Part shown: one piece after another, positions 7,487-64,000 of the stretch | How positions within the stretch are numbered: position 1 is the stretch's first letter | Layout: each line of letters opens with the position of its first letter | Assembly (NCBI GenBank): GCA_009746045.1 | Contig: RPFO01000027.1 | Location: forward strand, 2,118,202 to 2,182,201 | Direction: 5' to 3' | Source: Mesostigma viride | Taxonomy: Eukaryota > Streptophyta > Mesostigmatophyceae > Mesostigmatales > Mesostigmataceae | DNA length: 64,000 nucleotides | The notes under the pieces: model-generated | What the model was told of the DNA's origin: nothing | Database searches by the model: none | What the model saw: only the letters and a program-made list of their open reading frames with translations | Translations under genes and position numbers: made by a program

Positions 7487-8603
7487 ATGTTTGCCACAAA
7501 GTTTTACTTTATTTTCGGGGAAATGGGTATATTTTATTAGCCAATTATGGACCAAAGAGGTGAGAGGGGAAATGAGTATCAGCGAATCCTAATTAAGGTG
7601 GGCACACACACGTGTGGCGGTGACAGGTGAAAGGCTATTAGGGCGCGTTATTAGACCAGGGAAGCCATTGGACCTGAGTAATGTCGCCATGAGGCATACT
7701 GGTGAATACCCGATTACGGCCCAGTAGATCATGAAAAAGCTGGAGCGGGCTGGGCTTGTCGTTATTGGGCCCTGGGTCCCACACCCTGTGTTGTTCCTGA
7801 GCTAACAGCCAGTAGCGGCGCATAGCCGCATTCCATAGGTATACAAAGCGCCGGGCTACGCCGCCGCGGGTATACTCCTCGCGGACATTAAAGACTGTCT
7901 CGTTGCGTATGGTCCAGATCGCGTATAGCATAGTAGTGCGTAGCCATATCCATTCTGCTTGGGAAACTGAAAGCTCGGTCCCTGGTGTGCCAGCAATACC
8001 GAAAATGATGGCACGCACGCTAATTGGGAGATTGGGTGGCGATGCCGTCCATGCGGCCCAGATGTTAATGAGCCACGTCCAAACCCCTGGGAGATTACAG
8101 AAAAGGAACCTGTGCTCAATGGTTTCACTAGGGTGCGTGCACAGGCATGATGCATCATGACCAAAACGCTCGTGGAGCGTAGCGCAGACCCCTATCGCCC
8201 TATGCATCAAAAGATGTTGTACATCAGTGGCCCTGCGGTCCACGAGAGGGTGGTCTACCGCCAGGGTAATCATCTTAACCCAAGTGTAGCCCGGCCAATG
8301 TATTCCCCAGCGGGCTCGGCCCGGATGGGGCTGATGGTACGTATGCAACAAGATATCATAACCCCAATCTGCGGTGTACTCAAAGATACATTTGCTGGTT
8401 CTGATGTCCCCCTTGGTTAAGACCCATCCAAATTCAACCGGGTCCAGATGTAGTAGATCGAGCCGTGTGTTGCCCACGTGTAGCCATGTAATGCTCTCAA
8501 CCGGGGATAATGGGTCCGGCTGGATCATGCAAGATCTTGGCACAGACCATGGGACTACGCGTATGCGGTGACACTGGGAAGATGGCGTGTACGCATATAA
8601 GGT

Positions 8604-40680: not shown

Positions 40681-42246
40681 GGCGGATCATAATTCAAGCG
40701 GATCATAATTCAATAATAAGGCGGTTATTATTCAAGCGGATCACTGAACTTCTCACGCGGACAAACAACAGGTAGGTACTGCAACCTGGTTCAAAAACCA
40801 ACTTCCCCGCCTCCCTGGAAACTGAACCCCCGGGGCGGGAATACTGGGCAGCACCCTTATTTCGTACAAAGGACTCCCATGGTACTGGCAGCGCATATGG
40901 ACAGGTTACAATAAGCTCAAGCCGGGTCGCCTAGTCTTTCCTACTACTCGAGAGGAGGTGGCACGGCAGCCACTCTTTTTTAATGACTTAATCACAGACG
41001 CTACTAACAAGCCCCTTGGCACTCTCCACGGACACAACCCGTATGATGGCTTTCTGCGCGCGTCACCGCCGATTGTCAGGGTGCTGGACCTCTACCTGGG
41101 GCACGGCGCTACGTATCGACGGCTCAGCTACGACGAGGTCAGCACTTGGGTCTCCCACATGCCCTCCCTGCAAGCGTGGCAAACTCTTATCAGTGCGATA
41201 CCAGCTGCGTGGCATGCATTGATGACTGCCCCACGCAAGCCAATTATAACCGGCGACTGGGTTAGCTTCTACGCCGACGGAGTCACGCCTGCGTGCAAGG
41301 GTTTAGTCGTGACGGTTCTGCCACATGAGGGGCTCCAACTACAACTGCTGGAAGCTATTTCTGGCCACAGTGGGTGTCTGTATCAACTATCCACCTTATA
41401 TGCGTACACGCCAGCTTCCCAGTGTCACCGCATACGCGTAGTCCCATGGTGTGTGCCAAGATCTTGCATGATCCAGCCGGACCCATTATCCCCGGTTGAG
41501 AGCATTACATGGCTACACGTGGGCAACACACGGCTCGATCTACTACATCTGGACCCGGTTGAATTTGGATGGGTCTTAACCAAGGGGGACATCAGAACCA
41601 GCAAATGTATCTTTGAGTACACCGCAGATTGGGGTTATGATATCTTGTTGCATACGTACCATCAGCCCCATCCGGGCCGAGCCCGCTGGGGAATACATTG
41701 GCCGGGCTACACTTGGGTTAAGATGATTACCCTGGCGGTAGACCACCCTCTCGTGGACCGCAGGGCCACTGATGTACAACATCTTTTGATGCATAGGGCG
41801 ATAGGGGTCTGCGCTACGCTCCACGAGCGTTTTGGTCATGATGCATCATGCCTGTGCACGCACCCTAGTGAAACCATTGAGCACAGGTTTCTTTACTGTA
41901 ATCTCCCTGGGGTTTGGACGTGGCTCATTAACATCTGGGCCGCATGGACGGCATCGCCACCCACTCTCCCAATTAGCGTGCGTACCATCATTTTCGGTAT
42001 TGCTGGCACACCAGGGACCGAGCTTTCAGTTTCCCAAGCAGAATGGATATGGCTACGCACTACTATGCTATACGCGATCTGGACCATACGCAACGAGACA
42101 GTCTTTAAGGTCCGCGAGGAGTATACCCGCGGCGGCGTAGTCCGGCGCTTTATATACCTATGGAATGCGGCTATGCGCCGCTACTGGCTGTTAGCTCAGG
42201 AACAACACAGGGTGTGGGACCCAGGGCCCAATAACGACAAGCCCAG

Positions 42247-44541
42247 TGTTACGTCGCGTAACAATTCGTTGTAGTTACGGACGTAAATTAGGTCTTTTGC
42301 CTCGGTTGTCCCCAGGTTTACGTTTAGGCTCCTACCGGGACATTATTGTCCTCGTAACAGTACTGTGGTACATTGGGTGCCGTTGGGCGCCGCGCCGCGT
42401 ACTTTATTAGTGGTCCTGATCCTGTGGTAGAATGTAGTGGACCAGCGTGCATCAGTAGATGTAGTGGACCAGCGTGCATCTGTAGGCGAGGGCCATGTCG
42501 GCCCGAGCGTGTTGGACCGTTGGTGACCATTTATGCGCGTTCTACCCCTTGTGTGTGTACTCGGCGTGTGTTAAATGAATTAACACATTTAGGCTTGGGT
42601 CACGGCAGTGTAGTTGTGTTTCCTTCCTCTATTCCTGGAGTAAACGGGTTTTGATAAATGGTTGTATGGCGTATTATAGTAACACCTACGTTAACTCGTC
42701 GTCTGTCCCAACTCAGTCCTCACAGGAGGACTGAGTTGACAATTTTCAACCGCGTGTAGCGACTAGGTGGGGGGTCCATCCCAAATGTTTTGATGTGGAT
42801 CTGGGGTGTACTAGATATCATTTTGTTGGCAAAAATACTGCATATGTGAAAACTTGACCCGAACACCTGAAAATTACACGGACGTTGGGCGCCCCTCGCG
42901 AATTTGCATTTTTCGGGATAAGAACGAGTGGGAAAAATTCAATCAAATCCTGGTGCATGAAGAAAAAATATAGGCATGTAAACAACATAGTTCTTGAAGC
43001 GTGGCAAAAAACTGGGCTCCATTTGGCCACTGCAACTGCCTGAAACAATTAAAAAACTCTCAGTCCTCAGGAGAGGAATGGGGCTTTTGCTAACTTTGCT
43101 AGCATGTAAGTGCGGTCATACTACATCACCGTGGCCACCAACCATCCCAATCAACTCATTTCCCTTCAAGCATTACAGGACAACACACTTGCATCATCAT
43201 ACTTCAGGTATATCATGCCTTATCATGTAGTGAGAGCCTATGCATGCATGTAGGGAATGGGCTTGGATACCTACCAACAAAGGGTTATGTTATAAGTGTC
43301 AACCACCAATATAATGGGTAGGTTAAGCATATTTCCATTGTTTCAAACAACAATAGATATGGCTATAACTGTTTTGCCTTGCCATGATGTGGCCAACATA
43401 GTTGCTGGCACATGATGGCAGTGGTTTGTCACCAAGACTTTTCACTCACCCGTAAAAGCTTGAATGCACCCTTGACGCAGCCCGTGGCCACACAATCATG
43501 CAGTATGAACGTAGCAAAAGAATAACTAACATCTATGAAGGTGTTTAAACCTGCACAGCTCCTAAAACCCTGCACAACTACACTGGGTTAAGGCAAATGC
43601 CTGCTAACATCATCTGAAAAGGGGGTTTTAGAGAGGGGCAGGCAACGGTCAAGAAAGAGCATCAAGACTTGAACCTGACAACGCCTCGCAAGCTTAAACT
43701 CATGTACGAACATCAAGGAACGAAGAGGCAACGATTATCCGGCTTTACCTGGCACGGCTGGCGTTACCTTGGCCCAGGCGGTGCCCGCAAAAGTGGCACT
43801 TTGCGGCACATAGACCATGACGTGACAGAATGGTCGAGATCATCAAATCTATACTGTCACTCAATATATTCTAATGCAACTCATGTTAACATGTAGAAAG
43901 AAACCTATCAGCCATTGAAATTGCGCCGGAAAGCAAGCGCAGTAATCAATTCCGTCGACCTGCCTTATCGAGGTTTTTTCCAGCAAGAACAGTGCCGACA
44001 CCGGGTAAATCGCATCCCCGCGAGCTAAAAATTGATTTATATCATCTTTAGGGCATGTTAAATCTATTTACTGAGTTTGGACGGCTAACTCGTCCGCAAA
44101 CGTAAACTGCATGCATGGGCGCGAGCCGCCATGGCTAGGTCGTGCATTTCCGGAACTCGCGTTTCACGTGGAAAAGTACCCTTACCACCTGTACTTTGAC
44201 CGTACAGTTAGCCGCGCATACCAAATCCAAAAAAATCCCAAAAATATGTCCAAGAAAGATCTTTTCACGTAGTATTTGAATAAATTTTGAGAGAATTTTT
44301 TTGTCAAACATTCTGACCGGGGCGAATTTTCTACGAAACCCAAAAACTCGGTCCTCTAGAGAGGACTGAGTTCAACTCAGTCCTCCGTAGAGGACCAGGG
44401 ACAGACGACGAGTTAATGCATTGAGATCAGCTCCGTCACGTTCGTCTTTCGCCAGAGGGTTGAGTAGAGGAGGCCTGACCAGTTTAGGTAGTATCAGGCC
44501 CATTAGAGGTAGAGGTGGAGGTAGATATCCGCGGCGTAACA
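42247..44541 (+). repeat. 5' LTR of element G (contains element H)
   Basis: About 573 bp after removing H and one TTAA. Contains two 23-bp direct copies of GTAGTGGACCAGCGTGCATC. The other LTR differs at about six positions. Confidence 0.9.
42695..44412. mobile_element. element H: TTAA-flanked inverted-repeat transposon (piggyBac-type target)
   Basis: Ends are CTCGTCGTCTGTCCC and its perfect reverse complement, flanked by TTAA (42691-42694, 44413-44416). Subterminal palindromes CTCAGTCCTC..GAGGACTGAG occur at both ends. The 3' LTR of G shows the empty site TTAA. 1718 bp with no recognisable transposase, so non-autonomous. Confidence 0.88.
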
Positions 44542-44553
44542 ATGGTTCCGGAG
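44542..44553 (+). promoter_or_regulatory. probable primer-binding site of element G
   Basis: TGGTTCCGGAGG begins one base after the LTR end; the TGG pairs with a tRNA CCA tail. The tRNA is not identified. Confidence 0.5.
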
Positions 44554-45064
44554 GAACTTCAGTAGGTAGTGAACGAGACGACTATCCCTTGCCACATACA
44601 CCTTTTCAAGACCCCTTCCGCGTCCAGGAACAAGAAGTCGACACTTCCTTGATAGGTAATGGGCGGGTCGCCTTCAAGCTAGGAGAGTAGTGCTGCCCGT
44701 TTCGGGACACGCTCTACCTAGATGCTAGACCTGCTCGCAGCGGATAAATCCTTTCGTAGTTAGCCTGTCCTTCGCCTTGTTTTCCTGCTTACGGTTGTTT
44801 CCTGTCTTAGATAGGGGAGTATTACTGTTCGGAGACGATTAGCGTCGCAGTACCTACACCTTTTTCCTTGTGCTGCTGCTTTATTAGACGGCCGCACCCG
44901 CAGAGTTACGGGTCGCTGTGTTAGGACGAGCGCTGGACTATCCGGTCGCTGACTTAGGACGAGAGCTGGACAATTCCGCCCTCATTCTTCTTTCGGTGAT
45001 CCAGATCGTCTAGCTAAGTCGCCTACCCCTACCCCGTCTAGCTTGACTTCACAAGACCCGCCAG

Positions 45065-45562
45065 GTGAGTTACCATGAATCAACGTCGTGTGTTTACTGC
45101 GCCTTCACATTCATCTAAGTGATAATAGCTTAGCTAAGTATTACGTAGTTATTACCCCTCAATGGTCAGCCATTTTCCTCTCTTGGTCAGATGCTAGGAA
45201 GATAGTGCAAAATCGTACATATAATGTAGTTAGGTATAAGAAATTTGTTACCTTCGAGGAAGCTCAACAATTCCTTATAGACCATAGCGTATCAGATCTA
45301 GGCCTACACGTACGTTCTACTCCTCATGGTCGCCCTCCTGTAGAAGCTCTAGATTTTGCTACCCCTCCTTCGTCTCCCCCTAAGAGGGCTGCATCCTCAT
45401 CTAGCTTAGATACTCCTCTCACCTTAGAATTCGGTTCCCTATCCATTACTGTTGTTAAAAAGGATTGATTTAAATTGTTTCCTTCTTTTAAGCCATTAAA
45501 AGCTTTTTCTTCTCCTTCCTTGCCTTAAATTAGGCCTTGTCCTTTATCCTTGTTGCTTTCAG
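45065..45562 (+). other. probable leader intron of element G
   Basis: The donor CCAG|GTGAGT (45061-45070) is a perfect consensus. The acceptor CCTTGTTGCTTTCAG ends at 45562, 31 bases before the gag ATG. Splicing would remove the hybrid-binding ORF from the gag message, so spliced and unspliced RNAs could encode different products. Inferred from sequence only. Confidence 0.5.
45088..45468 (+). CDS. leader ORF with RNase H1 N-terminal / Cauli_VI-like hybrid-binding domain
   Basis: An open segment of 126 codons with KYYVVITPQWSAIFLSW and RYKKFVTFEEAQQFL: the aromatic, Trp and YKKF.T.EEA pattern of the RNase H1 N-terminal RNA:DNA hybrid-binding domain (also in caulimovirus VI proteins). A Pro/Ser-rich tail and an acidic/hydrophobic end follow. 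There is no in-frame ATG. An ATG at 45075 opens a 15-codon frame that meets TGA one base out of register, so the true start is unclear: frameshift, non-AUG start or assembly error. Likely role is RNA or hybrid binding, by family analogy. Confidence 0.7.
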   Translation: MCLLRLHIHLSDNSLAKYYVVITPQWSAIFLSWSDARKIVQNRTYNVVRYKKFVTFEEAQQFLIDHSVSDLGLHVRSTPHGRPPVEALDFATPPSSPPKRAASSSSLDTPLTLEFGSLSITVVKKD

Positions 45563-46746
45563 TTAGAATTCTGATCATTTACTTAAATAAAGATGGATCC
45601 AGTGGGTGGTAACATGTCGCCTATACCTACCAATACTCCTACTATGAGTAATAATAATAATAATACTAACAACCATAACAACAATCGTGGTAACCGACGG
45701 GACTCACTTGAAACGGTGCACCATCTCACTCCTCAAGGTAATCTTCGTACCTCACCTCCTTCTCCTATTGCTGGTGGTCGCCGTCGTCCCTCACTTACCC
45801 CTCCTACCTATGAACAACGTCAACGTATGCAAGTCAGATTCAGTGATGACCCTTCCCTTACCCTGAACCAGGCCCCTGCCCCTCCTGCAACCTTGGCTCA
45901 ACCCTCCAGCAGGTCCTCACTAACTAACAATGTTTTTAGGCCTCCTTCCCACCCTGTGCCTTCCATGCCTGCTCTTAACACGGGTCGTGCCTCTGCCCCT
46001 GTCGGTCCTTCTGGGCGCCCTAGTGCAGTTCCCTTTTACCCACCTGCTTCCTGGTCCTACCCTGAGACGGCCTATGAGGCAGCCCAGGTCCCTACCCGTG
46101 TGGCTGATTTAGAAGTTAATAGTGATTTCAGCACCATGCCCCTAGATGATAGAAATTATGATCATTTTGCCTATTCCTCTCTTCGTGAGCAATATACTGT
46201 CCCCTTCTCTTATGGGCACCAGCCTGAAACGGTGGCCCCTTCTAGACCCCTACCCAAGACTTTCCCTCTTCCTTCCTTCTATCCCGCGTATGTAGCAGTG
46301 GAAGATAGTGGCCCTATGGGAAAAACTGACTCTTCTAATCCCCCTAAGCCCCCTGCTCTTCCCCTCTTTGCTAACCTTCCCAAGCTGGATGTCAAGTCTA
46401 CCCCTCAACAGTTTTTCACCTTTATCATGTTGCTTACCCAGAACACGGAGTCGTGGCAGAATCATAATAGATGGCGTCTTTCTGATGCTGTATTAGTTCC
46501 TCACTATCTTACAACCTGTATTACTCCTGAGCTTGCTAACCTCATTCAGTGTGAGTCTTTGGCCTCTCATGCCTACCCTAACTCTGTAGCAGAATTGTTT
46601 AAGCGTTTAGAGAACCATTTAGTCCCTCCTGATTCAGATTGGCAGGATAGATTAGCCTTTGGTACCTTGCAGCAGGGTACTAAATCATTTAAGGAGTATA
46701 TGAAAGAGTTTGATGCTCAGATGGTACGAATTAGGGATTTGTCGGG

Positions 46747-47565
46747 TGTTTGGATTGGGGAGAGGAGACTAATGGGTTTTACACAATGCCTTGTGCTTGG
46801 CCTTGCTACCCACACACCTTGCAGGTGCTGAAAGAAAGAGAGGTTGAAGACAATTTACGTGGAAGAATAAATGGCTTTATTAGAATATAATAGTTGGAGA
46901 AGAGCTTGAATGGAGGTTGAATGGAGGTGAAATGGAGGTACCTGCCCTTAGGGGGCAGTTTCCTTTTATACCTTTTAGGCTAGGAAGGATGACATCAGCA
47001 ATGACATCATCACAGAAGCTTGTAGAAACATCCTAGCATATTCCTAGCATATTCCCAGCATATTCTCAGTATATTCCAGGAATATTCCTGGCATATTCTT
47101 AGAACATTCCTAGAACATTCTAGACATGATCCAATGAGCTGGCATAATAGCTAGATGCCAAGTGTCTACGTAATAATGTGCCACATAACATGATTAATAA
47201 AGTGACACATCTCTTCTCCTTGGAGTGACAAGTGTCATGCAATGAGTCTACCCACTTGTCATCATGTAAGTCATAACATGTGTCATCATGAGCTTCCAAC
47301 ACTTGTCAGCTCATGGACCAAACACTTGTCCAATAGGTCATAGCACCACTTGTCAATCAAATACGTGATGCTACTAGGCTGACTCAGGTTACAAGTCATC
47401 CATGTCCAAGTATAGGACTATGGCACATGAATATTGATCAGCTCATTGAGCCCAATCCATCTAGCTTATCAAGCTATCAAATTCCCAGTCCATATGGAAT
47501 AAATCCAACAAGAAATAAATCAGGCTGGGATACATTGTGGCCAGGTGGATATAATATCCCTAACA
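46747..47565 (-). repeat. 3' LTR of element I
   Basis: 819 bp, matching 50470-51289 with about four differences seen. Contains runs of 'catattcc(t/c)agcatattc'. Confidence 0.92.
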
Positions 47566-48718
47566 CCCCCCTTAGCCACATGGGCACAATGCAAAAGATG
47601 TCTGGGTAGGTGGAATCTCAACACCCCCCTTAACCACATGCTCGTAGCATGCCGTCCAGTTGCTAGCATGGTGCAACTGAAAATGAAGATGCCGTCCTCG
47701 TGAAACGCTTGAAGCTCCAACATGCGGTCGTGAGCCGCACTACCGCCACTGATCCGTCCCCCCCCGGCAACGCGAATGAGTGTCCAACCATAGCAGCGAC
47801 GCACTAGCTGCCCATCAATCCTGGATGGCTGATACCCAACCCTTAGTTGGAAAAAGTGCTCTAGATGCTACATTCCCCCCTCACTCAAAGCGGCTGCCCA
47901 TGGACACAATAGGGCCACACAGTCCCACACATATGATACGGCAACACATGCCAACAAAGAAGGTCCCTATGAGCTAACCCAAACGGTATAGAGGTAGGGT
48001 AACGGCAACAACACGTGCTGTACACACACGGAGCAACATAAATATGCCATCTCACGAAATAAATGACACCAACATCACGTTTTACGCCAAATAAACGGGG
48101 TGACTAAACATACATCTAGGCAACAAATGCCACACAAACAAGGTGCAATACAACCTTCAACACAAAACACAGTGGCCATAACAGATAAACGCGCTTCATA
48201 GCAAAGAAAACAGGACGTGCAAAACATTACCGCCACAAAGGCGAACACAAGTAAAGATTACTTCGTCACGATTCACAAATCAGTGCCCGAGAGTAAACAT
48301 TACGTCCGACATTACAGGCTATGCCGAAATGCACAGCCAAATTCGACACAAAGGACGTAAGCATTTGCATACAAGCAATGCTCTCAGCACAAAACAAAAT
48401 AACACACGCGTCACAGGCACTTTAACTTACGAAAACAAGTCGTAGACGACGATACAACGGCGCTTCACTACGCCGCAGACTAGTGCCACAAATAGCGTGC
48501 AAAAACTCTGGATATACACTCCAGGTACGTAGAAAACGTCTCGTGGGAACAATACCAAAATGCGTGGGCCATCGCCACTGAACGCATGGCAAAATAAACA
48601 CATAATTGCTGGAAGAACACAAAGAAAGAACCAGAAAACGCAGGCTTACGGCGCCTCACAATTTCCAGCAAACACGACACAAAAGTCGACATACAAGTTA
48701 ATTTCCCACAGACAAATA
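47566..48718. other. untranslated 3' internal region of element I
   Basis: No coding signal on either strand. It occupies the place where integrase, RT and RNase H would be in a complete copia element. Confidence 0.6.
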
Positions 48719-50386
48719 TTAGGGCAACCTTGAGGAGTGGGGTCTGTGCATCCTGGGCGACAATTTCCAAGGGTCGTTGCAGCTAGCGCAATTGCAAATG
48801 CCATGGCCTGGCCGAACACCGTCAACTGACCGACGTGATGCCTTGGCAGCATTTTGCAGTCGACTTGACCGTTGGTGCTTGACCGCACTTTGGCTGACAG
48901 GTCGCTGTCCACGTCGTTGTCGGCTCGCTCGAGGCCTCGCGCCAGCACCGGACTTGGCAGTCCAGGACTTGGAAAAATTTTGCAGCTTGGTCGATTTCGC
49001 CCTTGCGCCACGAATTTGTTCCCCCTCAGTTAGGCTGGCAGCGTTCATGCGCCGCGCCTTTGGTCTGGTCGCCGGACTTTGGTTACTAGCACCAGTATCA
49101 CCTGGTATGCTGGCGGCGACAACGCGCTCCGCCTGCACTGGGCTGTTCTGGACCGCAGTTTCTGGAAGTACTTCAGCGTCTGACACGGACTTCTCCATTG
49201 CGCTGGAAACTTCTCGAATTGGCGTGAACTTCCACTGGGCCGGCGCAGAGTATATAAAGCCACGCAGTGTGCGAGTAATGCCCAGTAGGCCGCCCCCGAT
49301 CCCGCATACACGGGCAAGCATGGCCAGTATGACCGTTAGGCCCACGGCCAGCCACTCCGCCGCGTGTCCCGAGGCACGTGAGATGCTGCGCTCGCTGCTC
49401 GCCATTTTCTGCCCTTGACAGGCAGCGTCGACGTCCTTGAAGCTCGTCGCCGAAGATTTCAGCTCTGGGATGGCGTCCATCGCTGCGTCCGCACCGCGCG
49501 CGGGCAAAAAGTAGGTGTTATTCCTCGTCACGATGCTGCAGGGCCTGCTGTCCAGCACAGCAACCCGCTTGGCGAGGTCGACGTTGTGGCCATCCTTGAC
49601 GAGCTGGCCGACAGATAAAAGTCGGGTGCTCAGCCTGGGAACGAGCAGCGCGTTTTGGAGGTGCACGTCCGCGTCCTGACCCGGCAGCTTCAGTTTGACA
49701 GTCCCGATGGCTGTCGCCTTCAGTTGGCCGCCTGAGCCGGCGATTTCCCTGTCATGAGGGTGCAGGCACACGAAGTCCGACGGGCATGGCGTCATGTGAC
49801 AGCTCGCTGCAGAATCCAGCACCCAGCTGGTCGGCGCCTTCTTTTCATATTGCGTGAGTGCAGCAGCATCCGACGGCGATGGCGACTCGGCGATGGTGGC
49901 GAAGACGAAGCCGGACGGCTCCGCAGCCTCCTCGGTGATACGCGCCTCGCTGGCACCTGGTGAGTGCTCCTTTCTCGCTTGGTTCCGTCGCGTTGCCTTG
50001 TTCTTGCGTTCTTGCTTCAGCTCCGGATGCTTCTCCCAGCACTGGGTGTCCACGTGCCCGGCCTTCTTGCAGTAATTGCACCGCCTCTTTCCTCCACTTT
50101 TCTTCGTAGTAGTGTGGAAAACCTGGCCGTTAGGGGAGCCCTCCTTCTTTGCTTGAGCAGAACGCCTTCCGTGCAGTAGCTCCTCCGCCTCCAGCAGCGC
50201 AGTCTTGACCTCCTTTAGCGAATCCTCCTCTCCAGTTAGGACCTTGACCAGGTCACAATAGGCCGATGCTAAGGCCTTCAACACAGCCTTGATTTCTTCC
50301 CATTTCCTCAGAGACCGCCCATCAAACGTTGTGATGGACTTGCTTGTTGCCCGGAATTGCTTGTAGCACGCTTCCTTGGTAGCCAT
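48719..50386 (-). CDS. Gag-protease-like protein of element I with a membrane-type segment
   Basis: ATG 50386. A short Gag remnant (TTFDGRSLRKWEEIKAVLKA; EEDSLKEVKTALLEAEELL), a CCHC knuckle CNYCKKAGHVDTQCW, then a copia protease (SWVLDSAASCHMTP; LLSVGQLVKDG). The usual long N-terminal Gag domain is missing. After the protease come a ~20-residue hydrophobic segment (EWLAVGLTVILAMLARVCGI), a second weaker one, and a strongly basic tail. Integrase and RT are absent. Frame intact over 555 codons, suggesting recent expression or selection. Protease Asp-Ser-Ala replaces the common DSG/DTG, as in many copia DS(G/A)A boxes. Confidence 0.85.
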   Translation of the reverse strand: MATKEACYKQFRATSKSITTFDGRSLRKWEEIKAVLKALASAYCDLVKVLTGEEDSLKEVKTALLEAEELLHGRRSAQAKKEGSPNGQVFHTTTKKSGGKRRCNYCKKAGHVDTQCWEKHPELKQERKNKATRRNQARKEHSPGASEARITEEAAEPSGFVFATIAESPSPSDAAALTQYEKKAPTSWVLDSAASCHMTPCPSDFVCLHPHDREIAGSGGQLKATAIGTVKLKLPGQDADVHLQNALLVPRLSTRLLSVGQLVKDGHNVDLAKRVAVLDSRPCSIVTRNNTYFLPARGADAAMDAIPELKSSATSFKDVDAACQGQKMASSERSISRASGHAAEWLAVGLTVILAMLARVCGIGGGLLGITRTLRGFIYSAPAQWKFTPIREVSSAMEKSVSDAEVLPETAVQNSPVQAERVVAASIPGDTGASNQSPATRPKARRMNAASLTEGEQIRGARAKSTKLQNFSKSWTAKSGAGARPRASRQRRGQRPVSQSAVKHQRSSRLQNAAKASRRSVDGVRPGHGICNCASCNDPWKLSPRMHRPHSSRLP

Positions 50387-50469
50387 GGTGTCTTCAGTCG
50401 CCAATGGAACTGGATGTCTCTGGGTTCACAGTGGTCTTCTTGTTCCTCAGTAACAAACCTCCGATACCA

Positions 50470-51289
50470 TGTTTGGATTGGGGAGAGGAGACTAATGGGT
50501 TTTACACAATGCCTTGTGCTTGGCCTTGCTACCCACACACCTTGCAGGTGCTGAAAGAAAGAGAGGTTGAAGACAATTTACGTGGAAGAATAAATGGCTT
50601 TATTAGAATATAATAGTTGGAGAAGAGCTTGAATGGAGGTTGAATGGAGGTGAAATGGAGGTACCTGCCCTTAGGGGGCAGTTTCCTTTTATACCTTTTA
50701 GGCTAGGAAGGATGACATCAGCAATGACATCATCACAGAAGCTTGTAGAAACATCCTAGCATATTCCTAGCATATTCCCAGCATATTCTCAGTATATTCC
50801 AGGAATATTCCTGGCATATTCTTAGAACAATCCTAGAACATTCTAGACATGATCCAATGAGCTGGCATAATAGCTAGATGCCAAGTGTCTACGTAATAAT
50901 GTGCCACATAACATGATTAATAAAGTGACACATCTCTTCTCCTTGGAGTGACAAGTGTCATGCAATGAGTCTACCCACTTGTCATCATGTAAGTCATAAC
51001 ATGTGTCATCATGAGCTTCCAACACTTGTCAGCTCATGGACCAAACACTTGTCCAATAGGCCATAGCACCACTTGTCAATCAAATACGTGATGCTACTAG
51101 GCTGACTCAGGTTACAAGTCATCCATGTCCAAGTATAGGACTATGGCACATGAATATTGATCAGCTCATTGAGCCCAATCCATCTAGCTTATCAACGCTA
51201 TCGAATTCCCAGTCCATATGGAATAAATCCAACAAGAAATAAATCAGGCTGGGATACATTGTGGCCAGGTGGATATAATATCCCTAACA
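50470..51289 (-). repeat. 5' LTR of element I
   Basis: 820 bp; followed on the minus strand directly by TGGTATCGGAGG. Confidence 0.92.
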
Positions 51290-51898
51290 TCGGGTGCAGA
51301 AGTACGTGCTCGCTTCCTCCAAGGCCTCAGTAGACCCTTATTACGTGAAGTCAAGCGCCAGTTCTCTGCCTACCGTTTTACTGATCTGCCCCTCAAGCAT
51401 GTGCGCCAGCATCTCTTGCGTGTAGCAGATTTCTTCACCACTCCTTCTCTTCCTACCCGTTCCCGTATTAATAATATTATCCTTACCCCTGAGGAGGAGA
51501 ACTCCTATGTAGAAGAATTAGATATCTGTGTTACTGACCTTTCAGCCCTTGATGTCTCTCATATCACATGCTATCATTGTAAGGAAGTAGGTAATCTTAA
51601 ACGTGAGTGCCCCAAGTTCCTTTCGGGTGCTCCCCCTCATCCCGACGCTCGCCCTCCTCGTACCCCTCAGCGTGCTCCTATTCGTCCTACTTCAGGACGC
51701 ATTCCCTCAGCTACCCCTAGTAGGCTGAATGCTGTGCAGGCAGGACCCCCAGGGTTCCCCTATGATAATCAGGCTCCCGCACCCTCTTCGCTCCCTCGTG
51801 ACCCTCCAGCAGTGGCTTTTTCGCCAGGGTCTTCTTCGGGGTTAGTTCCTATGGATTTGGGGGGGAGGGGGAACAGTAGGCCTGTCAGCCGGGGGTAA

Positions 51899-52738
51899 CC
51901 TGGACAGGTCCTTAGATAGTACCCCAGATAAAAATTTTTGCCTGCCTGTTTTTATAACCTCTGTAGGAGCTGAATCTTCCCTACCACTACGTGTGCGTCC
52001 TCTTATGTTCTTGAATGGTGGTTTAACCGTCCCTCACACTGTTGTAGACCCCTTCTTGCATGCTGATGAACTTTGAATGTCTCTGTGTTGGTAGATAGCG
52101 GTGCGGCTAGCTCCTTTGTGAGCGAGGCCCTAGTTAGGCGTTTAGGACTAGTCCCTACCCCTCACACCAAACCCGTTACTGTTCATTATGCTGATGGTCG
52201 CACCAGTCATTCCCCGGGTACGGTGTCCCTTCCCATGGTTATACAAGGACGTACTGTCAACCTGACGGCCACTATAGGCCCTATCACTACCGCTGATGTA
52301 TTACTAGGATTAGATTGGCACCAGGATAATAAGATTACTATTAATTATGATACCATGGTCATTTGGTTTCCAGATAGCTCTTACTGGGTACCGGAACGTC
52401 ATTATAGATTGGAAAATTTATCCTTGGTAGATATTACTCCTCCTACACCTGTTGATCCTCCTGTAAGACCTATACCTGAAGTATTAATGTCCAATGATGA
52501 GTTGCGTTCTGAACTAAAGGAATATGGATATTTATTATGTATGTTCCTTCAGTTAGAAGTACAGGAGATACCTATCACTAATAATAGTGTGGATATAGAT
52601 ATAAACACAGTGGATACAATAGGAGTGGGATTTACTGAAAATGAAATAGTAAGATACATGGCTGTGATAGATTCCTCAAAGTTTTTGAAGAAAAGACTCC
52701 TTCTTATCCTCCTCCTCGTTCTGTTTTACACCGTGTAG
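51899..52738 (+). pseudogene. protease region of element G pol
   Basis: A short segment in one frame (VGAESSLPLRVRPLMFLNGG) leads to the main frame at 52073: VLVDSGAASSFVSEALVRRL and ADVLLGLDWHQDNKI, a typical Ty3 aspartic protease (DSGA and LLGLDW). A linker follows to the RT. A frame change separates the two parts around 52070. Confidence 0.85.
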
Positions 52739-53750
52739 TTATCAAGGACGGTGCAGTTCCTACGCACTCTCCGATGTATAGAATGGGCCCTACCGAGTTA
52801 AAGGAACTAAAACAGATTTTAGTGTCATTATTAGAAGCAGGATTGATAGAGCCTAGTAACTCCCCTACTCAGCTGGTGTCCTGTTAGTTCCTAAGCCAAA
52901 TGGCAAGTTTCGCCTAGTTACTGATTATAGGAAGTTGAATGATATTACTGTGAAGTCTAAATACCCTCTACCTCGTATTGATGATATATTTAATAAGGTT
53001 AAAGGTTCCACTTGTTTCACAGTACTGGATTGTGCGGATGGTTTTTGGCAGTTGCGGATAGCTCCTGAGGATTGCCATAAAACCGCCTTTGCTACCCCTT
53101 TTGGTCATTACCAGTTTAGAGTAGCGGCTATGGGACTCTGTAACTCGCCTGCCTCTTTTCAAATGTTAATGAATGAAGTGCTTAGACCTGTTATGGGAAA
53201 TTCTCACCTTCCTCAGGTGTCCTCTGATTTAAAGGATCCTTCCTTCTCCTCTGTTTCTTTATCTGAGCATGACCGTTCTTGTGCTCAAGCTTACTTAGAT
53301 GATATTCTTATTTACTCTCCTGATTTTGAAACGCACCTACGTGATTTAAAGAAAGTATTAGAAATAATGGCTGAAAATTCTTTGTGGGCGCGCCGTGCTA
53401 AAGTTCGTTCGGGTAGGAGTGTCCCATTTTTAGGGCACGTTCTGTCAGATGCCGGGGTCGCTACCGACCCGGATAAAACTAAGTCAATTCAGGAATGGCC
53501 TACTCCTACCGACGTTAAAGGTGTACGTAGTTTTCTAGGAATTGCTTCTTACTATAGGCGTTTTATCCCGCGTTTCGCAACTATAGCAGCCCCTATTAAT
53601 CATTTATTAAAGAAGGATATCCCCTTTGTTTGGAGTAGTGAATGTCAGTCGGCTTTTCAGTGCCTAAAATCCCTACTCCTTTCCCCTCCTGTACTCATCC
53701 TACCGGATACTACTAAACCCTTTGTTGTGGCTACAGATGCTAGTAAGTAG
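52680..53750 (+). pseudogene. reverse transcriptase of element G
   Basis: HSPMYRMGPTELKELKQIL, then a one-base loss near 52868 (C-run), then PLPRIDDIFNKVKGSTCFTV, LDCADGFWQLRI (motif A Asp), FGHYQFRVAAMGLCNSPASF, AYLDDILIYS (YLDD), FLGHVLSDAGV and FLGIASYYRRFIP. An insertion of about 20 residues (53190-53280) lies before the YLDD box. Ends at TAG 53748 caused by a one-base change in ATDASK. Confidence 0.93.
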
Positions 53751-54370
53751 CTATAGGTGGTGTCCTTCTCCAGGATCAGGGTCAGGGCTTACAGCCAATT
53801 GAGTATATCTCTAGGACAATGCTCCCTGCGGAGCGTAACTATCCCGTACACCAGCAGGAACTCTTAGCGGTGGTGTATTGTTGCCACGCGTGGCAGCACT
53901 TTCTTAAAGGTGCTCAATTTGATGTCTGCCTGAATGAACCCTGTGAGCTAGATCCTTATAGGTTAGTTATCCAAACGGATCACCGTCCCCTTACCCATCT
54001 TCTCTCCCAACCCAACCTTACCCCTCGGCAAGCGCGCTGGATGGAATTTTTAGCACAGTTTTCCCCTTTTAAACTTCAGTATGTCAAGGGTGTAGATAAC
54101 ATAGTACCAGATGCACTCTCTCGTCGTGCAGACTATTCCTTTTTCGAGGACCTTGATGTTCTCAATACTACTCTAGTTCCTACTACTATGGGTGTAACCC
54201 CTTATGGTGAACTACCTGATGATGAATCCTATGCCTACCTCTTTCATACAGCTGTTCGCATGCCTGATCTCCTTTCTCACGTAGGACTCTCTCTCCCGTG
54301 TGAGGCCCTTCCCGTGGCCTCGGTGGGGGGGAGGGGAAAAATAAAATTTCTATACCGCTTAGCCATATAG
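53700..54370 (+). pseudogene. RNase H of element G
   Basis: VVATDASK (first Asp), then after the frameshift ERNYPVHQQELLAVVYCC (Glu), VIQTDHRPLTHLL (Asp) and VPDALSR (last Asp). Directly after the RT, as in Ty3 elements. Confidence 0.9.
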
Positions 54371-54399
54371 CGACTAGGTCAGGAAAGTCTTATGAAAAC

Positions 54400-55951
54400 G
54401 TAGTCCCTCTAGGACCTCCCCTTCTCTTTGGCAAGGCGGTAGGAGATCTCTTTAAACCTGTTCTGGATACCTCTGTAGCGATGCCTACCTCTGATCTTGA
54501 ACGCCTTATTAGTAGATTTACGGCCACTGAGCCGGAAGCATTAGCTGCCATTGCTGCACATCCCCAACAATTAGGCAAGCACCCTTGTAAATTTGTAGGT
54601 GGGTTTTTATATGTGCAGATAGCAGATTCTCCCCCTCAATGGCGCCTGTATGTCCCTCCTATCTGTCGCTCCTCCTTGCTCTTTGAGTTGCATGACTTAG
54701 CTGCTCATCAGGGTGGTAAACGGGTACGGGACCTAGTAGCCCGCTCTTATTACTGGCCTTCCCTTTATAAGGATGTAGATGAGTATGTTAGAACTTGTCA
54801 ATCTTGCCAGGAATGAAACCCAATAACGTAGGACAGATAGCAGAACCTAGGACCTTGCCTGACCCCATCATGCCGTGGGATTCTATCATGATGGATTTTG
54901 TAGGACCTTTTAGAAAGAATGATAGGGGCAATGCCCAAATCCTTGTGTTCATAGATCGTTTTACTCGTATGTGCCATCTCGTGCCGTGTCCTTTAGAACT
55001 CACAGCACGTGATTGCGCACGCCTATACCTCAATAATGTATACAGATATCATGGTTTGAGTAGGCAGTTTATTAGTGATAAGGATAAGTTATTTACCTCA
55101 GATTTTTGGCAGCAGTTTTTCGCTGCCATCGGTACCAAGGTTACCTACGGTACTGCCTACCACTCCTCCTCCTCTCATTTAGTAGAGCGTCTTAATAGGG
55201 TAGTAGAAGAAGCGCTTAGGCACTATGTTAATGGCTCGGGAAGTGATTGGGAGGATTATTTATGTTTGGTAGAGTTCTCCCTCAACAATTGTCCCCAAGC
55301 TGCGCATGGATATACGCCCTTCTTCTAGATACTGGTAGACAGCCCTTACCCCTACCTCTCTCTTAGCTAGTCCTCTACGGGACAAGGATGATGTGTCCCG
55401 AGATACTGTAGAAGGTGTACAGTCCTTACTAGATAGAATGAAAACTGCTCATGACCACGCGATCTCAGGGTACCAAAAAGCTCAGTCTAAGTACCTTGCT
55501 AGGTTGCGTGCCTCCTTAGATAGAAGAGCACCTGAGATAGAAATAGGAGATCTAGTATTAGTAGAAGGCCCCCGTGTTGGCCGTTTTGCTCATAAGTTTG
55601 AAGCAGAACTTAAGGTCAAACTTAGGCCCGCCTTCTTAGGACCCTTCCATGTGTTGTCTAGAGTAGGAAATTTCTTATATAAAGTCGATATCCCTACCTC
55701 TTGGCAGACACATTCAAACACCTTCCATAGGAGCCAGCTGAAACTGTACCACCCTAGTACGTTCGCTGGTAGAGCTAGCGCCTGCCCCTTTAGAGCATAA
55801 CCCTGACACTGGGGAAGTAGAAGACGAAGTAGAAAGCATCGTGGCCCATAGAGATATCAAAAAGGGCCGCGGTACCCAGCGTCAGTATAAAGTGAAGTGG
55901 ATGTATGCTCGTAGTGAAGTAGATAAGGTTGGTATACGGAGAGTGAGCTAG
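54400..55951 (+). pseudogene. integrase of element G with GPY/F module and chromodomain-like tail
   Basis: H2C2 finger (FELHDLAAHQGGKRVRDLV..YVRTCQSC, about 54680-54812); catalytic core from 54830 with MMDFVGPF, FISDKDKLFTS and HLVERLNRVVEEAL as D, D, E; frame breaks near 54816 and 55328. 55393-55757 has KLRPAFLGPFHVL and FHRSQLKLYHP (GPY/F module). From about 55800, EVESIVAHRDIKKG and RQYKVKW resemble a chromodomain, stopping at TAG 55951 without the usual Trp-Glu-Pro part. Places G with the chromoviruses. Confidence 0.88.
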
Positions 55952-56041
55952 ATGGGTGTAGTCGCCTGCTGCAGGAATATAAAACCCTGCACAAGCTCTA
56001 GTTGTAGGCTTCTCCTCTCTTATGTTATGTCTGCTGTCGAC

Positions 56042-56076
56042 GGGTGGTTGGTTGTCCCCTCCCCTCCGCAGCCGTC
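56042..56076 (+). promoter_or_regulatory. splice-acceptor-like sequence before the extra ORF of element G
   Basis: TCCCCTCCCCTCCGCAG (56055-56071) is a strong pyrimidine tract plus CAG, ending five bases before the ATG at 56077. It could pair with the leader donor at 45065 to make a subgenomic mRNA. Inference. Confidence 0.45.
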
Positions 56077-58391
56077 ATGTCAGAGCCTACCCCTCCGGCT
56101 GAGAGCCCGCTGCCGTCCCTGCCCCTACCGGACCCTGAGCTGTACTTCGAGGCCCTTCCGGGCCGTTGGGTGTCACGGTCCAGTTTCCGGGTGGCGTCGT
56201 GCATCCGGCCCTCCAGGCCCAGCATGCGGGTTTAGTCAGGGCGGCTCTCTTCGGGGTCACGTGGTACGGTCCTCCCCTGCTGAACCGCACAGCTTGTTTT
56301 GCACGGGTTCGACGATGCCGGCCACTGTTTGCTAGAATGTGGCTCCAGCTGTCCAGCCTGGGACAGATAGCTGCGGTTCTCCAGTGCCCCAGGGTGTTTT
56401 CCTACCTTTCTACCCCTGTGGGCCGCTCCTGCCTACGGGATGTGTTCCCCTGGCTTCCGGCCGAGGGTGATGCGGAAATAGATGAGAACCCCTGCGACCT
56501 TCTACGGGCCGTAGAGTTCATGGAGATAGCAGACCAGACAGCGGGCGTAGGATTGGGCGACCCTACTCCTACGGACGCGCCGGTAGAGGCACAGTATTCC
56601 CTGAGTATTCGGCCTCCCCTGCGGCGTCCTCCTCTTCAGTGTCGGCGCCTTCCCCTGTCCCGTCTTCACCGAGGTCGGTCCTGTGCGCATCGGTGGAGCC
56701 TACCCCTTTGGGCTCTGGTCGTGAGCCTGATCCTCTTTCGGCGACAGTTTCTGCGATGCAGGCGCAGATCCAGTCCCTGACGGCGGCCTTCGGGGCCTTC
56801 ATGGCGGCCCAGGCGCACGCTCCAGCCACGCCAGGTGGGGTGTCTGTGCAGCTGTGCCCCCTTCCCCTTCGGTCGCCTCGACGTCTACGGGTCCGTCTGT
56901 GCGCGAGCCCTCGGCGGCTGCGGTTCCCTCTGTGCTGCGGCTCCTACGCCTTCGGCTACCTCTGCGCCTGCTACTGACGTACCTGCGCCTCGGCGCGAGT
57001 CCGCCGTCCCAGCGGCCGCGCCCGTCGCCGCCGCGTCCGAGCCGCCCACCACGTCAGCGCCGCCCTCGCGGGGTTTCTTCAGCGACCCGGGCGGTCTTCC
57101 CAGGCTTTGGGAGGGCGGTCCTCCGCAGAGGATCCCGGTGCCTGACTGGAGCTTGGACGGTAACCAGTCGTATGCCGGATTGCCTGTCCCCACGGGCCCT
57201 ATTTTCAACATGTGGCCTGGTGGTGCTCCGCCCCCAGAGACCGGCGCGCCAGTTGCGGAGGCGGGTCCGTCGCGACCCCCTGCGGCATCGGGTCCGACGC
57301 GGCCCCCTGTTGTACCGGCGCCGTCTGCGCCTGTGCCGGTTCCTACCCCTTCGTCGGCCCCTGTCCCTTCGGCCCCGCGGTCTTTGGCTGCGGTTGTTCG
57401 GTCCAGTGGCTCTGACCCGCGCGCCACCCGCGCTGCCGATTCCCTTCGGGAGTTGTCAGAGGGCGATCGGGATCGGGCCCCTTCTGTGGTGCATGCGACT
57501 CCGGAGTCGCGCGACACGCCTGTCTTTGGGTATGGTATGTCTGCGCTCGCCTGCCGCCAGTGTGACCTGCCGCGCGCCTCCGCCGAGCTTGCCATTTCGC
57601 CCATGTCCTACGGGTTCTCCCAGGTGTGTCGGGCGCCGCGGGACCGTGGCCTACCAGTTGAGACTGATCGGCCTCCTTTCGACATGGTTATTTTAGCTGA
57701 TCCGGTGTTCCAGGGTGAGATCCTGGTTCGGCGCGTCCTGTATCGCTGGGCTAGGCGCCACAATGACTTGGACACCTACGGCGGGTTCCAGTGGGCTTAC
57801 CCTCCGCCTCTGGGCATTATGGCCTCAGATGCCCTTACGGTAGAGTTTCCTGCGGTGCCGGGTGCCACGTACAGCACGGTCCTTCAGCCCATCCTAGAGT
57901 GGGATGCCCGTCGTCCAGCGCCCATCCCGGGCCAGGGTTTGGACTCTCGGGGTCATCCTCCTCCCCGGGCTAGCGACTACCTCGAGACGTTCGGGTCGCG
58001 ACAGTGTGCCCGTCGGTGGCGCTCCCGTGAGATTCGGCATATCCGGTTGTGGCCGTCCAACGTGGAGCCCCTGGTAGATCTGTTTTTCCCGACGGGTATG
58101 CGCCCTCGGATCCGGTACCATCGCCTGCTCCTGCGGGCTCTCTGCCTGATCGCGGTAGAGCCTTTCCTACGCCTCTTTGCCTGTGGTTTCCTGGACTGGG
58201 CCCGGGGCCAGGTCGTTCTTACGCAGCATAGGTATTACTGGGCCTTCCTGGGTCTTTTTCCTGACGGCGTGTGGGCCGATGTTTTCCTCACTGTAGATAG
58301 GCACGACAATGCTGAGGATGTGTCTCACTACCAGGCGTACCTGGATGTCCTGCTGGCCTCCCGTGGTACCTACCAGACGGATGGCCATTAG
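56077..58391 (+). pseudogene. extra ORF of element G, unknown function, between pol and 3' LTR
   Basis: ATG 56077 (MSEPTPPAESPLPSLPL). The frame changes three times (about 56165, 56600, 56850), after which 1.5 kb is open to the stop at 58389. Joined conceptually it is about 770 residues. Middle: VSAMQAQIQSLTAAFGAFMA, a helix that could be a coiled coil. Then a Pro/Ala/Ser-rich region, and a C-terminal ~300-residue domain rich in Arg, Trp and Tyr (FQGEILVRRVLYRWARRHND; WPSNVEPLVDLFFPTGMRPR). No clear signal peptide, membrane anchor or known domain. Third positions are far richer in GC than in pol of the same element, suggesting separate origin. It sits where env genes sit in retroviruses, but no env features were seen. 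Confidence 0.65.
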
Positions 58392-58747
58392 ATAGAGGGC
58401 CTTAGGCCCGACCTGAGGGTGTTGTCCCTCCGGTATATAGAGTCGCCCTCACGTTCTGGCCAGTTGACTGGTCGTTCTTGGTCCTTGGTGCTGATTTGTT
58501 TACTCTGTGTGTCCTGCCCAGTGCCGTTCCCCCCGGCAAGGACTTTGTTCCAGGCAGTTAGGGGAACCTACCACCAGGCTTGGTGCTGGCTAACCCTACA
58601 CCTCCCGGCGTGGTGGTGGAGACCGTGTGAACTATTGGTGCTTTGTATCTTGGATGGCCTGCCGATTGTGTTGGTGTGTGCTGGGTGCATTAGGTTTCCT
58701 ACCCCTTGTTTTCCTCCCTGTGCGTAGGGAGAGGGCTCCCTACCTTT

Positions 58748-58760
58748 GTGGGGGGGGAGG
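58748..58760 (+). promoter_or_regulatory. polypurine tract of element G
   Basis: GTGGGGGGGGAGG directly before the 3' LTR start TGTTACG. Confidence 0.85.
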
Positions 58761-59331
58761 TGTTACGTCGCGTAACAATTCGTTGTAGTTACGGACGTAA
58801 ATTAGGTCTTTTGCCTCGGTTGTCCCTAGGTTTACGTGTAGCTCCTACCGGGACATTATTGTCCTCGTAACAGTACTGTGGTACATTGGGTGCCGTTGGG
58901 CGCCGCGCCGCGTACTTTACTAGTGGTCCTGATCCTTGGTAGAATGTAGTGGACCAGCGTGCATCAGTAGATGTAGTGGACCAGCGTGCATCTGTAGGCG
59001 AGGGCCATGTCGGCCCGAGCGTGTTGGACCGTTGGTGACCATTTATGCGCGTTCTACCCCTTGTGTGTGTACTCGGCGTGTGTTAAATGAATTAACACAT
59101 TTAGGCTTGGGTCACGGCAGTGTAGTTGTGTTTCCTTCCTCTATTCCTGGAGTAAACGGGTTTTGATAAATGGTTGTATGGCGTATTATAGTAACACCTA
59201 CGTTAATGCATTGAGATCAGCTCCGTCACGTTCGTCTTTCGCCAGAGGGTTGAGTAGAGGAGGCCTGACCAGTTTAGGTAGTATCAGGCCCATTAGAGGT
59301 AGAGGTGGAGGTAGATATCCGCGGCGTAACA
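58761..59331 (+). repeat. 3' LTR of element G
   Basis: 571 bp, TGTTACG...CGTAACA, with an uninterrupted TTAA where H is inserted in the 5' LTR. The same two 23-bp direct copies as in the 5' LTR. Confidence 0.93.
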
Positions 59332-59586
59332 CCCAGCCCGCTCCAGCTTTTTCATGATCTACTGGGCCGTAATCAGGTATTCACCAGTATGCCTCATGGC
59401 GACATTACTCAGGTCCAATGGCTTCCCTGGTCTAATAACGCGCCCTATTAGCCTTTCACCTGTCACCGCCACACGTGTGTGTGCCCACCTTCATTAGGAT
59501 TCGCTGATACTTCCTTTCCCCTCTCACCTCTTTGGTCCATAATTGGCTAATAAAATATACCCATTTCCCCGAAAACTGAACCCCCG

Positions 59587-62230: not shown

Positions 62231-63184
62231 TTTCCCCCCCCCCTTCTCCCCTTCTCCCCTTCTCCCCTTCTCCCCTTCTCCCCTTCTCCCCTTCTCCCCT
62301 TCTCCCCTTCTCCCCTTCTCCCCTTCTCCCCTTCTCCCTTCTCCCCTTCTCCCCTTCTCCCCTTCTCCCCTTCTCCCCTTCTCCCCTTCTCCCCTTCTCC
62401 CCTTCTCCCCTTCTCCCCTTCTCCCCTTCTCCCCTTCTCCCCTTCTCCCTTCTTCTCCCCTTCTCCCCTTCTCCCCTTCTCCCCTTCTCCCCTTCTCCCC
62501 TTCTCCCCTTCTCCCCTTCTCCCCTTCTCCCTTCTCCCCTTCTCCCCTTCTCCCCTTCTCCCCTTCTCCCCTTCTCCCCTTCTCCCCTTCTCCCCTTCTC
62601 CCCTTCTCCCCTTCTCCCCTTCTCCCTTCTCCCCTTCTCCCCTTCTCCCCTTCTCCCTTCTCTCTCCCTTCTCCCCTTCTCCCCTTCTCCCTTCTCCCCT
62701 TCTCCCCTTCTCCCCTTCTCCCCTTCTCCCCTTCTCCCCTTCTCCCCTTCTCCCCTTCTCCCCTTCTCCCCTTCTCCCCTTCTCCCCTTCTCCCCTTCTC
62801 CCCTTCTCCCCTTCTCCCCTTCTCCCCTTCTCCCCTTCTCCCCTTCTCCCCTTCTCCCCTTCTCCCCTTCTCCCCTTCTCCCCTTCTCCCCTTCTCCCCT
62901 TCTCCCCTTCTCCCTTCTCCCCTTCTCCCCTTCTCCCTTCTCCCTTCTCCCCTTCTCCCTTCTCCCCTTCTCCCCTTCTCCCTTCTCCCCTTCTCCCCTT
63001 CTCCCCTTCTCCCCTTCTCCCCTTCTCCCCTTCTCCCCTTCTCCCCTTCTCCCTTCTCCCTTCTCCCCTTCTCCCCTTCTCCCCTTCTCCCCTTCTCCCC
63101 TTCTCCCCTTCTCCCCTTCTCCCCTTCTCCCCTTCTCCCCTTCTCCCCTTCTCCCCTTCTCCCCTTCTCCCCTTCTCCCCTTCT
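62231..63184. repeat. satellite block 1: (CCCCTTCT)n
   Basis: 8-bp unit, pure pyrimidine on the plus strand, about 120 units with scattered 7-bp units (CCCTTCT) and one TCTCTCCC irregularity near 62660. No stop codon exists in the repeat in this orientation, which creates a long spurious minus-strand frame. Confidence 0.97.
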
Positions 63185-63840
63185 CACCCTCTCACCCTCT
63201 CACCCTCTCACCCTCTCACCCTCTCACCCTCTCACCCTCTCACCCTCTCACCCTCTCACCCTCTCACCCTCTCACCCTCTCACCCTCTCACCCTCTCACC
63301 CTCTCACCCTCTCACCCTCTCACCCTCTCACCCTCTCACCCTCTCACCCTCTCACCCTCTCACCCTCTCACCCTCTCACCCTCTCACCCTCTCACCCTCT
63401 CACCCTCTCACCCTCTCACCCTCTCACCCTCTCACCCTCTCACCCTCTCACCCTCTCACCCTCTCACCCTCTCACCCTCTCACCCTCTCACCCTCTCACC
63501 CTCTCACCCTCTCACCCTCTCACCCTCTCACCCTCTCACCCTCTCACCCTCTCACCCTCTCACCCTCTCACCCTCTCACCCTCTCACCCTCTCACCCTCT
63601 CACCCTCTCACCCTCTCACCCTCTCACCCTCTCACCCTCTCACCCTCTCACCCTCTCACCCTCTCACCCTCTCACCCTCTCACCCTCTCACCCTCTCACC
63701 CTCTCACCCTCTCACCCTCTCACCTCTCACCCTCTCACCCTCTCACCCTCTCACCCCTCACCCTCTCACCCTCTCACCCTCTCACCCTCTCACCCTCTCA
63801 CCCTCTCACCCTCTCACCCTCTCACCCTCTCACCCTCTCA
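63185..63840. repeat. satellite block 2: (CACCCTCT)n
   Basis: 8-bp unit, about 82 copies, very uniform; short units only near 63720 and 63756. Sharp boundary with block 1. Confidence 0.97.
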
Positions 63841-64000
63841 CCTTCTCACCTTCTCACCTTCTCACCTCCTCACCTTCTCACCTCCTCACCTCCTCACCTC
63901 CTCACCTCCTCACCTCCTCACCTCCTCACCTCCTCACCTCCTCACCTCCTCACCTCCTCACCTCCTCACCTCCTCACCTCCTCACCTCCTCACCTCCTCA
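63841..64000. repeat. satellite block 3: CACCTTCT to (CACCTCCT)n, continuing past the window
   Basis: A few CACCTTCT units mixed with CACCTCCT, then pure CACCTCCT to the edge. Each block's unit differs from the next by one or two bases in a fixed 8-bp register. Confidence 0.97.

Follow-up and report, generated by a model that had tools for sequence, protein, structure and literature searches.

The window analysed here is a stretch of 64,000 nucleotides from the genome of Mesostigma viride, an early-diverging unicellular streptophyte green alga. It contains a Ty3 element (42247-59331, forward strand) inserted in a LINE, with the 5-bp target-site duplication CCCAG at both ends (left 42242-42246, right 59332-59336), as recognised from the uninterrupted LINE sequence at 7750-7754. 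The LTRs start with TGTTAC and finish with GTAACA. The 5′ LTR (42247-44541, +) aligns to the 3′ LTR (58761-59331, +) in two blocks, being split by a DNA transposon (42695-44412) at a duplicated TTAA. The aligned LTR bases were identical at 568 of 571 positions and mismatched at 3; of 7 further gap positions, at least four are due to the TTAA duplication. The inverted ends of the DNA transposon read CTCGTCGTCTGTCCC. A primer binding site (PBS) with TGG at 44543 and, immediately 5′ of the 3′ LTR, a polypurine tract (58750-58760, +; GGGGGGGGAGG) were both read from the sequence.

The gag gene (45593-51898, +) is split by a copia element (46747-51289; target-site duplication TCGGG, LTRs of about 820 bp), and its Pfam matches, Retrotrans_gag (1.4e-4) and a zinc knuckle (0.014), both fall short of Pfam's cut-off. 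The pol gene (52073-56001, +) encodes protease, RT, RNase H, integrase, SH3 and chromodomain, with several frame breaks in the window copy. Its Pfam matches were RVP_2, RVT_1, RT_RNaseH_2, rve and SH3_Tf2-1, in the Ty3 order PR-RT-RH-INT. The chromodomain, frame-broken in the window, was matched at the integrase C-terminus of another copy, L009 (PF00385, Chromo, 1e-8). Judged from other copies, the pol stop corresponds to position 55999-56001, 75 nt 5′ of the ATG of the next gene, the distance being 76 nt in most copies. By the pol domain order, the chromodomain and the LTRs, PBS, polypurine tract and target-site duplication, the element classifies as a multi-copy Ty3 chromovirus of M. viride.

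Between pol and the 3′ LTR, on the same strand, lies a third open reading frame, ORF3 (56077-58391, +), with its ATG at 56077 and its stop at 58391. A sequence-only reading of the window had described it as an ORF of about 770 codons with three frame breaks, in the env position of a Ty3 chromovirus. Both its size and its place were borne out: ORF3 was 762-774 aa long in 11 other copies measured, and the window frame shifts three times relative to the intact relative P0003. Since intact frames exist in other copies, the frame breaks belong to the window copy and not to the family as a whole.

The Mesostigma assembly (440 Mb, 2243 contigs) was searched in six frames with the 301-aa C-terminal domain of ORF3 (57486-58388, +). 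At least 137 matches of 98-100% identity were found, all with zero internal stops, a lower bound on the number of copies as these were scored out of 2234 first-look candidates. Of the 137, 36 had a frame open over 789 codons or more. From these, 20 copies were selected for the length of their frames and so as to sample the whole list of matches, and 8 further loci were read alongside. The open frame covered the ORF3 start in 18 of the 20 copies, being shifted there in L018 and L022, and continued through the region 5′ of the ATG in 15. These 15 copies (L018, L022, L024, L026 and L028 being excluded) made up the dN/dS set, for which pairwise counts were pooled in the style of Nei and Gojobori. 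The dN/dS was 0.055 for the C-terminal domain, 0.18 for the N-terminal part, 0.41 for the Pro-rich part and 0.25 for the piece between, all far below 1. As the copies had been chosen for open frames, the gain of stops is underestimated; the dN/dS of sense codons is not lowered by such a choice as such. For the 42 codons that precede the ATG in frame, some of which also lie within the end of pol, read in a different frame, the value was a near-neutral 0.86. Selection thus acts from the ATG onward and hardly 5′ of it, which places the start of ORF3 at 56077. The element thus has in ORF3 a true third gene: other copies keep it intact, and purifying selection on it sets in at its own ATG.

A host gene fragment or an unrelated insertion limited to the window copy would fit the composition of ORF3, which is unlike that of gag-pol. 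That explanation is practically negligible in view of the purifying selection and the large number of scored matches, and a separate host gene was not found in the protein searches. Moreover, the end of pol lay directly upstream of ORF3 in 13 of the 14 copies examined among the 20 fetched, and by alignment likewise in the 14th, L027.

The divergence between copies was uneven along ORF3. Copies L009 and L019 differed by 1.5-5% where pol ends, by 11-24% over the 5′-most 1.4 kb of ORF3, by 5-8% in the C-terminal domain and by roughly 5-7% in 3′ UTR and LTR. Between L009 and L012 a single 300-bp block of ORF3 was 17% different, flanked by blocks at 7% and 8%. This mosaic, next to pol ends that are nearly the same, suggests recombination between subfamilies within ORF3; uneven substitution rates are an alternative account.

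The leader exon (44542-45064, +) extends from the PBS to a splice donor, CAG|GTGAGT, found exactly where the sequence-only reading had placed it. The sequence CAGGTGAGT is unique in the element and occurs twice in the window. Short stretches were read for 39 genomic leaders (40 scored of 337 candidates, minus the window itself); all kept GTGAGT (36) or GTGCGT (3) after CAG, and none was spliced. Four whole leaders, obtained from 20 stretches chosen by distance, were aligned with that of the window. Two leaders 82-84% identical to the window's carried the donor core AGGTGCGTTA. An ORF in the leader starts 10 bases past the donor, so part of the conservation of the donor may belong to that start.

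The acceptor of ORF3 (56055-56071, +; TCCCCTCCCCTCCGCAG) consists of 13 pyrimidines followed by GCAG and stands five bases 5′ of the ATG, again as had been described. A strict scan for long pyrimidine tracts did not flag it, because a G precedes the CAG, and flagged instead one place, at 50309 in the copia insert. The end of the acceptor, TCCGCAG, was present in all 19 aligned copies, with small changes before it in L023, L026 and L028. Compared with L009, the spacer between pol and ORF3 had 15 differences over 76 positions in L011 and 14 over 76 in L022, none of them in the pyrimidine tract or the CAG. Only 2 of the 15 and 2 of the 14 fell in the last 34 nt (P 0.006 and P 0.010, for a cut chosen after inspection of the alignment and two copies that are related), and the same count in the less diverged L019, L021 and L028 gave P 0.30, 0.55 and 0.046. 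In a further subfamily, the ORF3-side loci kept the CAG in 17 of 17 cases, with an identical 17-mer in 15 and small changes in two. Both donor and acceptor are conserved in diverged subfamilies.

In the proposed single long splice, position 45064 at the end of the leader exon would be linked directly to 56072; the leader ORF, gag and pol would be taken out, and the ATG of ORF3 would come five bases past the junction. The junction, predicted in the sequence-only reading for RNA, was found as one integrated DNA copy with exactly these sites. A degenerate pattern laid over it had 1 match in the 440 Mb, and the reversed pattern, used as control, had 0. In the matching copy (L049, wider L050; also L051) the order is LTR, leader and ORF3 from the base equivalent to 56072, with nothing in between. 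A query of 121 bases across the junction gave 40 matches (scored of 352 candidates): one spanning, 9 leader-only, ending at base 61, and 30 ORF3-only, starting at base 59. The overlap of three bases between the leader-side and the ORF3-side matches arises because CAG is common to both sites. On the leader side, the related copy L052 reads CCAACCAG|GTGCGTTACCATG, that is CCAG|GTGCGT at the donor; on the ORF3 side, L056 reads CCCCTCCGCAG|CCGTCATGG, and the ORF3-side border CTCCGCAG|CCGTCATG. The spliced copy reads CCAACCAG|CCGTCATGG. Over 1040 bases of LTR and leader it shares 97% identity with L052, and its ORF3 part shares 96% with L071.

The spliced copy lacks about the first 20 bases of the LTR, and its ORF3 side ends after about 1165 bases, the 3′ part being absent. 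No 3′ LTR was found in the 8 kb read. Parts of its own ORF3 and leader recur in inverted orientation at its 3′ end (L050, 2949-3226), as would result from a cDNA that folded back or integrated into itself. The copy is likely the footprint of a reverse-transcribed spliced RNA; such an RNA, if it exists, may occasionally be reverse-transcribed. A chance or micro-homology deletion is possible because both borders share CAG, and that it should have fallen at exactly both predicted sites seems much less likely than the copying of a spliced RNA.

Translation of ORF3 from unspliced RNA, by reinitiation or frameshift after pol, would make use of the frame that is open 5′ of the ATG, overlapping the end of pol, in 15 of the 20 fetched copies. 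It is nevertheless quite improbable, given that the ORF3 frame is close to neutral over this upstream stretch, that ORF3 starts 75-76 nt past the pol stop in most copies, and that a spliced copy with the exact sites is present in the genome. A particular case, reinitiation at a TAG-ATG before ORF3, was rejected: pol does not read that TAG in frame and stops only 50 nt downstream of it, and over the stretch the ORF3 frame evolves almost neutrally. Expression of ORF3 by the long splice 45064/56072, on the other hand, is strongly supported by the conserved sites and the spliced copy.

In four copies measured, the N-terminal 210 residues of ORF3 had a pI of 4.4-4.7, the middle contained 18-20% Pro, and the C-terminal domain had a pI of 7.8. 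A Pfam search with five ORF3 proteins returned no family up to E 10, and a sequence search of the PDB returned a single match at chance level (E 0.31). In the protein search, 5 of 3579 candidates matched this domain at E ≤1e-3, all of them Mesostigma (Mesvir1) gene models, the best being 100% identical over the part searched. The N-terminal part matched 2 of 7994 scored candidates, both from Mesostigma. Among viral contigs, 12 stretches fitted one of two ORF3 peptide patterns and none was confirmed. No relative of ORF3 outside Mesostigma was found in these protein and viral-contig searches. Structure prediction, which the sequence-only reading had proposed, was run on the C-terminal domain and the N-terminal part and gave models with pLDDT 33 and 44, respectively, too poor to use.

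A membrane protein of envelope type, spliced like retroviral env and serving in cell-to-cell or extracellular spread, would account for the placement of ORF3 after pol and for a splice from the leader, and a hydrophobic 19-mer, ALCLIAVEPFLRLFACGFL, with a hydropathy of 1.92, lies about 65 residues from the end of ORF3. The sequence-only reading had seen no env hallmarks, which holds for the N-terminus, glycosylation and domain content and needs qualifying for this one segment. The top 19-residue hydropathy in the first 60 or so residues was 0.80-1.07 in the four copies, so that there is no hydrophobic N-terminus, and each copy had 0-1 N-glycosylation motifs. The 19-mer, the sole strongly hydrophobic segment, includes Glu and Arg, which would make it at most one doubtful membrane helix. 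With no Pfam match either, ORF3 is not recognisable as an Env by its sequence features, and an envelope function is very unlikely.

As there are no env features and no usable match of structure or homologue, we infer that ORF3 is an intracellular accessory protein. Its product would be a non-envelope protein working within the cell and would consist of an N-terminal part that is acidic, a short helix with a Pro-rich spacer, and a rigidly conserved C-terminal domain of 301 residues. A role as accessory protein in replication or in the particle is the most likely of the options, at slightly below an even chance. A counter-defence protein made from spliced RNA, functionally like RTBV P4 or the defence suppression by CaMV TAV, is a possible, rather doubtful alternative. 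For RTBV P4, PMC5902531 describes expression from spliced pregenomic RNA and implicates the protein in suppressing plant defences. In agreement with such a function, the N-terminal part and the Pro-rich middle of ORF3 are the most variable between subfamilies. The C-terminal domain, however, is nearly invariant, as a typical arms-race protein is not, and the lack of a Pfam match for ORF3 also counts against it. Taken together, the full picture, in which ORF3, a real third gene, is expressed by the single long splice 45064/56072 and encodes an intracellular, non-envelope protein, is likely.

The ORF in the leader (45075-45468, +) carries an RNase H1 N-terminal (Cauli_VI) domain and is frame-broken in the window copy; in four other copies it is 130-134 aa long. 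The Pfam short name of the domain family, Cauli_VI, points to caulimovirus gene VI. PF01693 was matched at 7.9e-8 in the window and at 8.8e-8 and 1.7e-6 in two other copies, and matches to RNase H1 in the PDB were weak (best E 0.088). Comparisons of subfamilies gave a dN/dS of 0.08-0.22, a sign of purifying selection, with two of the four copies identical there. The leader ORF is thus predicted to encode a conserved hybrid-binding protein of RNase H1 type. A protein search with it gave 1 match of 32 candidates, a 73-aa entry from Alexandrium andersonii (P0006) that is 99% identical and most likely a cross-contamination.

Before gag there is a candidate second acceptor (45543-45562, +; TTTATCCTTGTTGCTTTCAG), which in the four aligned leaders is kept in L044 and L047, has one change in L042 and is altered in L041. 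If it were used, the leader ORF would be spliced out of a gag mRNA as an intron. One genome pattern for a leader-gag spliced DNA copy hit two places, both in unrelated sequence, and this good-looking acceptor therefore remains a candidate. A more elaborate scheme that would resemble the splicing of complex retroviruses may be tentatively considered, one we would regard as unlikely at present, in which one donor and two acceptors yield unspliced RNA for the RNase H1/TAV-like protein, short-spliced RNA for gag-pol and long-spliced RNA for ORF3, the last being a new non-envelope family exchanged as a module between subfamilies.

Athila and Bagy2 are among the plant LTR retrotransposons in which pol is followed by an additional sense-strand ORF (aORF-3S) before the 3′ LTR, and Bagy2 is reported to be spliced (PMC7264820). 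A sense ORF in that location was present across the Mesostigma copies examined, and ORF3 resembles the aORF-3S of Athila and Bagy2 in place, strand and occurrence in many copies. The additional ORFs of that type owe the label env-like to the transmembrane domains that some of them have. ORF3, in contrast, has no convincing transmembrane domain, its host is a green alga and its element a chromovirus. Nor does it match any Pfam family. With retroviral env it shares the arrangement of a donor in the leader and an acceptor just 5′ of the third gene, and it differs in having no env sequence features. Rice tungro bacilliform virus is a pararetrovirus without integrase or LTRs. Its P4 is made from a downstream ORF of a spliced long RNA (PMC5902531), as ORF3 would be, and the likeness of the two lies in this expression layout. 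The TAV/P6 of caulimoviruses, whose functions are described in that article (PMC5902531), is matched by the leader ORF and not by ORF3; the likeness extends to the PF01693 domain only, in a protein of 130-134 aa. The LTR elements of bdelloid rotifers carry varied ORF3s, often non-envelope, which include a GDSL esterase/lipase and a DEDDy exonuclease (PMC5408684), whereas the Mesostigma ORF3 matches nothing. A chromovirus survey assigns env-like ORFs to Athila-like elements, and one of its figure legends contains an additional ORF of unknown function (PMC2864245).

A literature search by title and abstract opening found nothing on a third ORF in Mesostigma elements. The position and the probable expression logic of ORF3 are known from elsewhere; the protein resembles nothing found in the searches, and for this chromovirus and its host no report was found. 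A chromovirus of an early-diverging streptophyte alga has gained a third gene and, seemingly, its splicing, and the protein is no recognisable envelope, an indication that a 3′ gene may come to be spliced to serve functions inside the cell. The exact junction 45064/56072 makes the splicing directly testable in RNA reads, whose collection the Mesostigma genome papers mention (PMC6947507, PMC7027972), with RNA-seq and Iso-seq data described in PMC6947507.

Finally, the sequence-only reading had contrasted the GC-rich third positions of ORF3 with an AT-rich pol and had taken this to suggest capture. The contrast is real, the GC3 being 0.63-0.79 in ORF3 and 0.34-0.46 in gag-pol. The leader ORF had a GC3 of 0.31, and seven other transposon ORFs of the window ranged from 0.47 to 0.72. 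The compositional outlier among the transposon ORFs measured is the AT-rich gag-pol and not ORF3, and the protein searches found no source gene; the composition thus does not argue for capture, which is a possible origin of ORF3. Elsewhere in the window, a long and strongly pyrimidine-rich repeat occupies its end (62240-64000), the last kilobase of which is without any G (GC skew -1.0).
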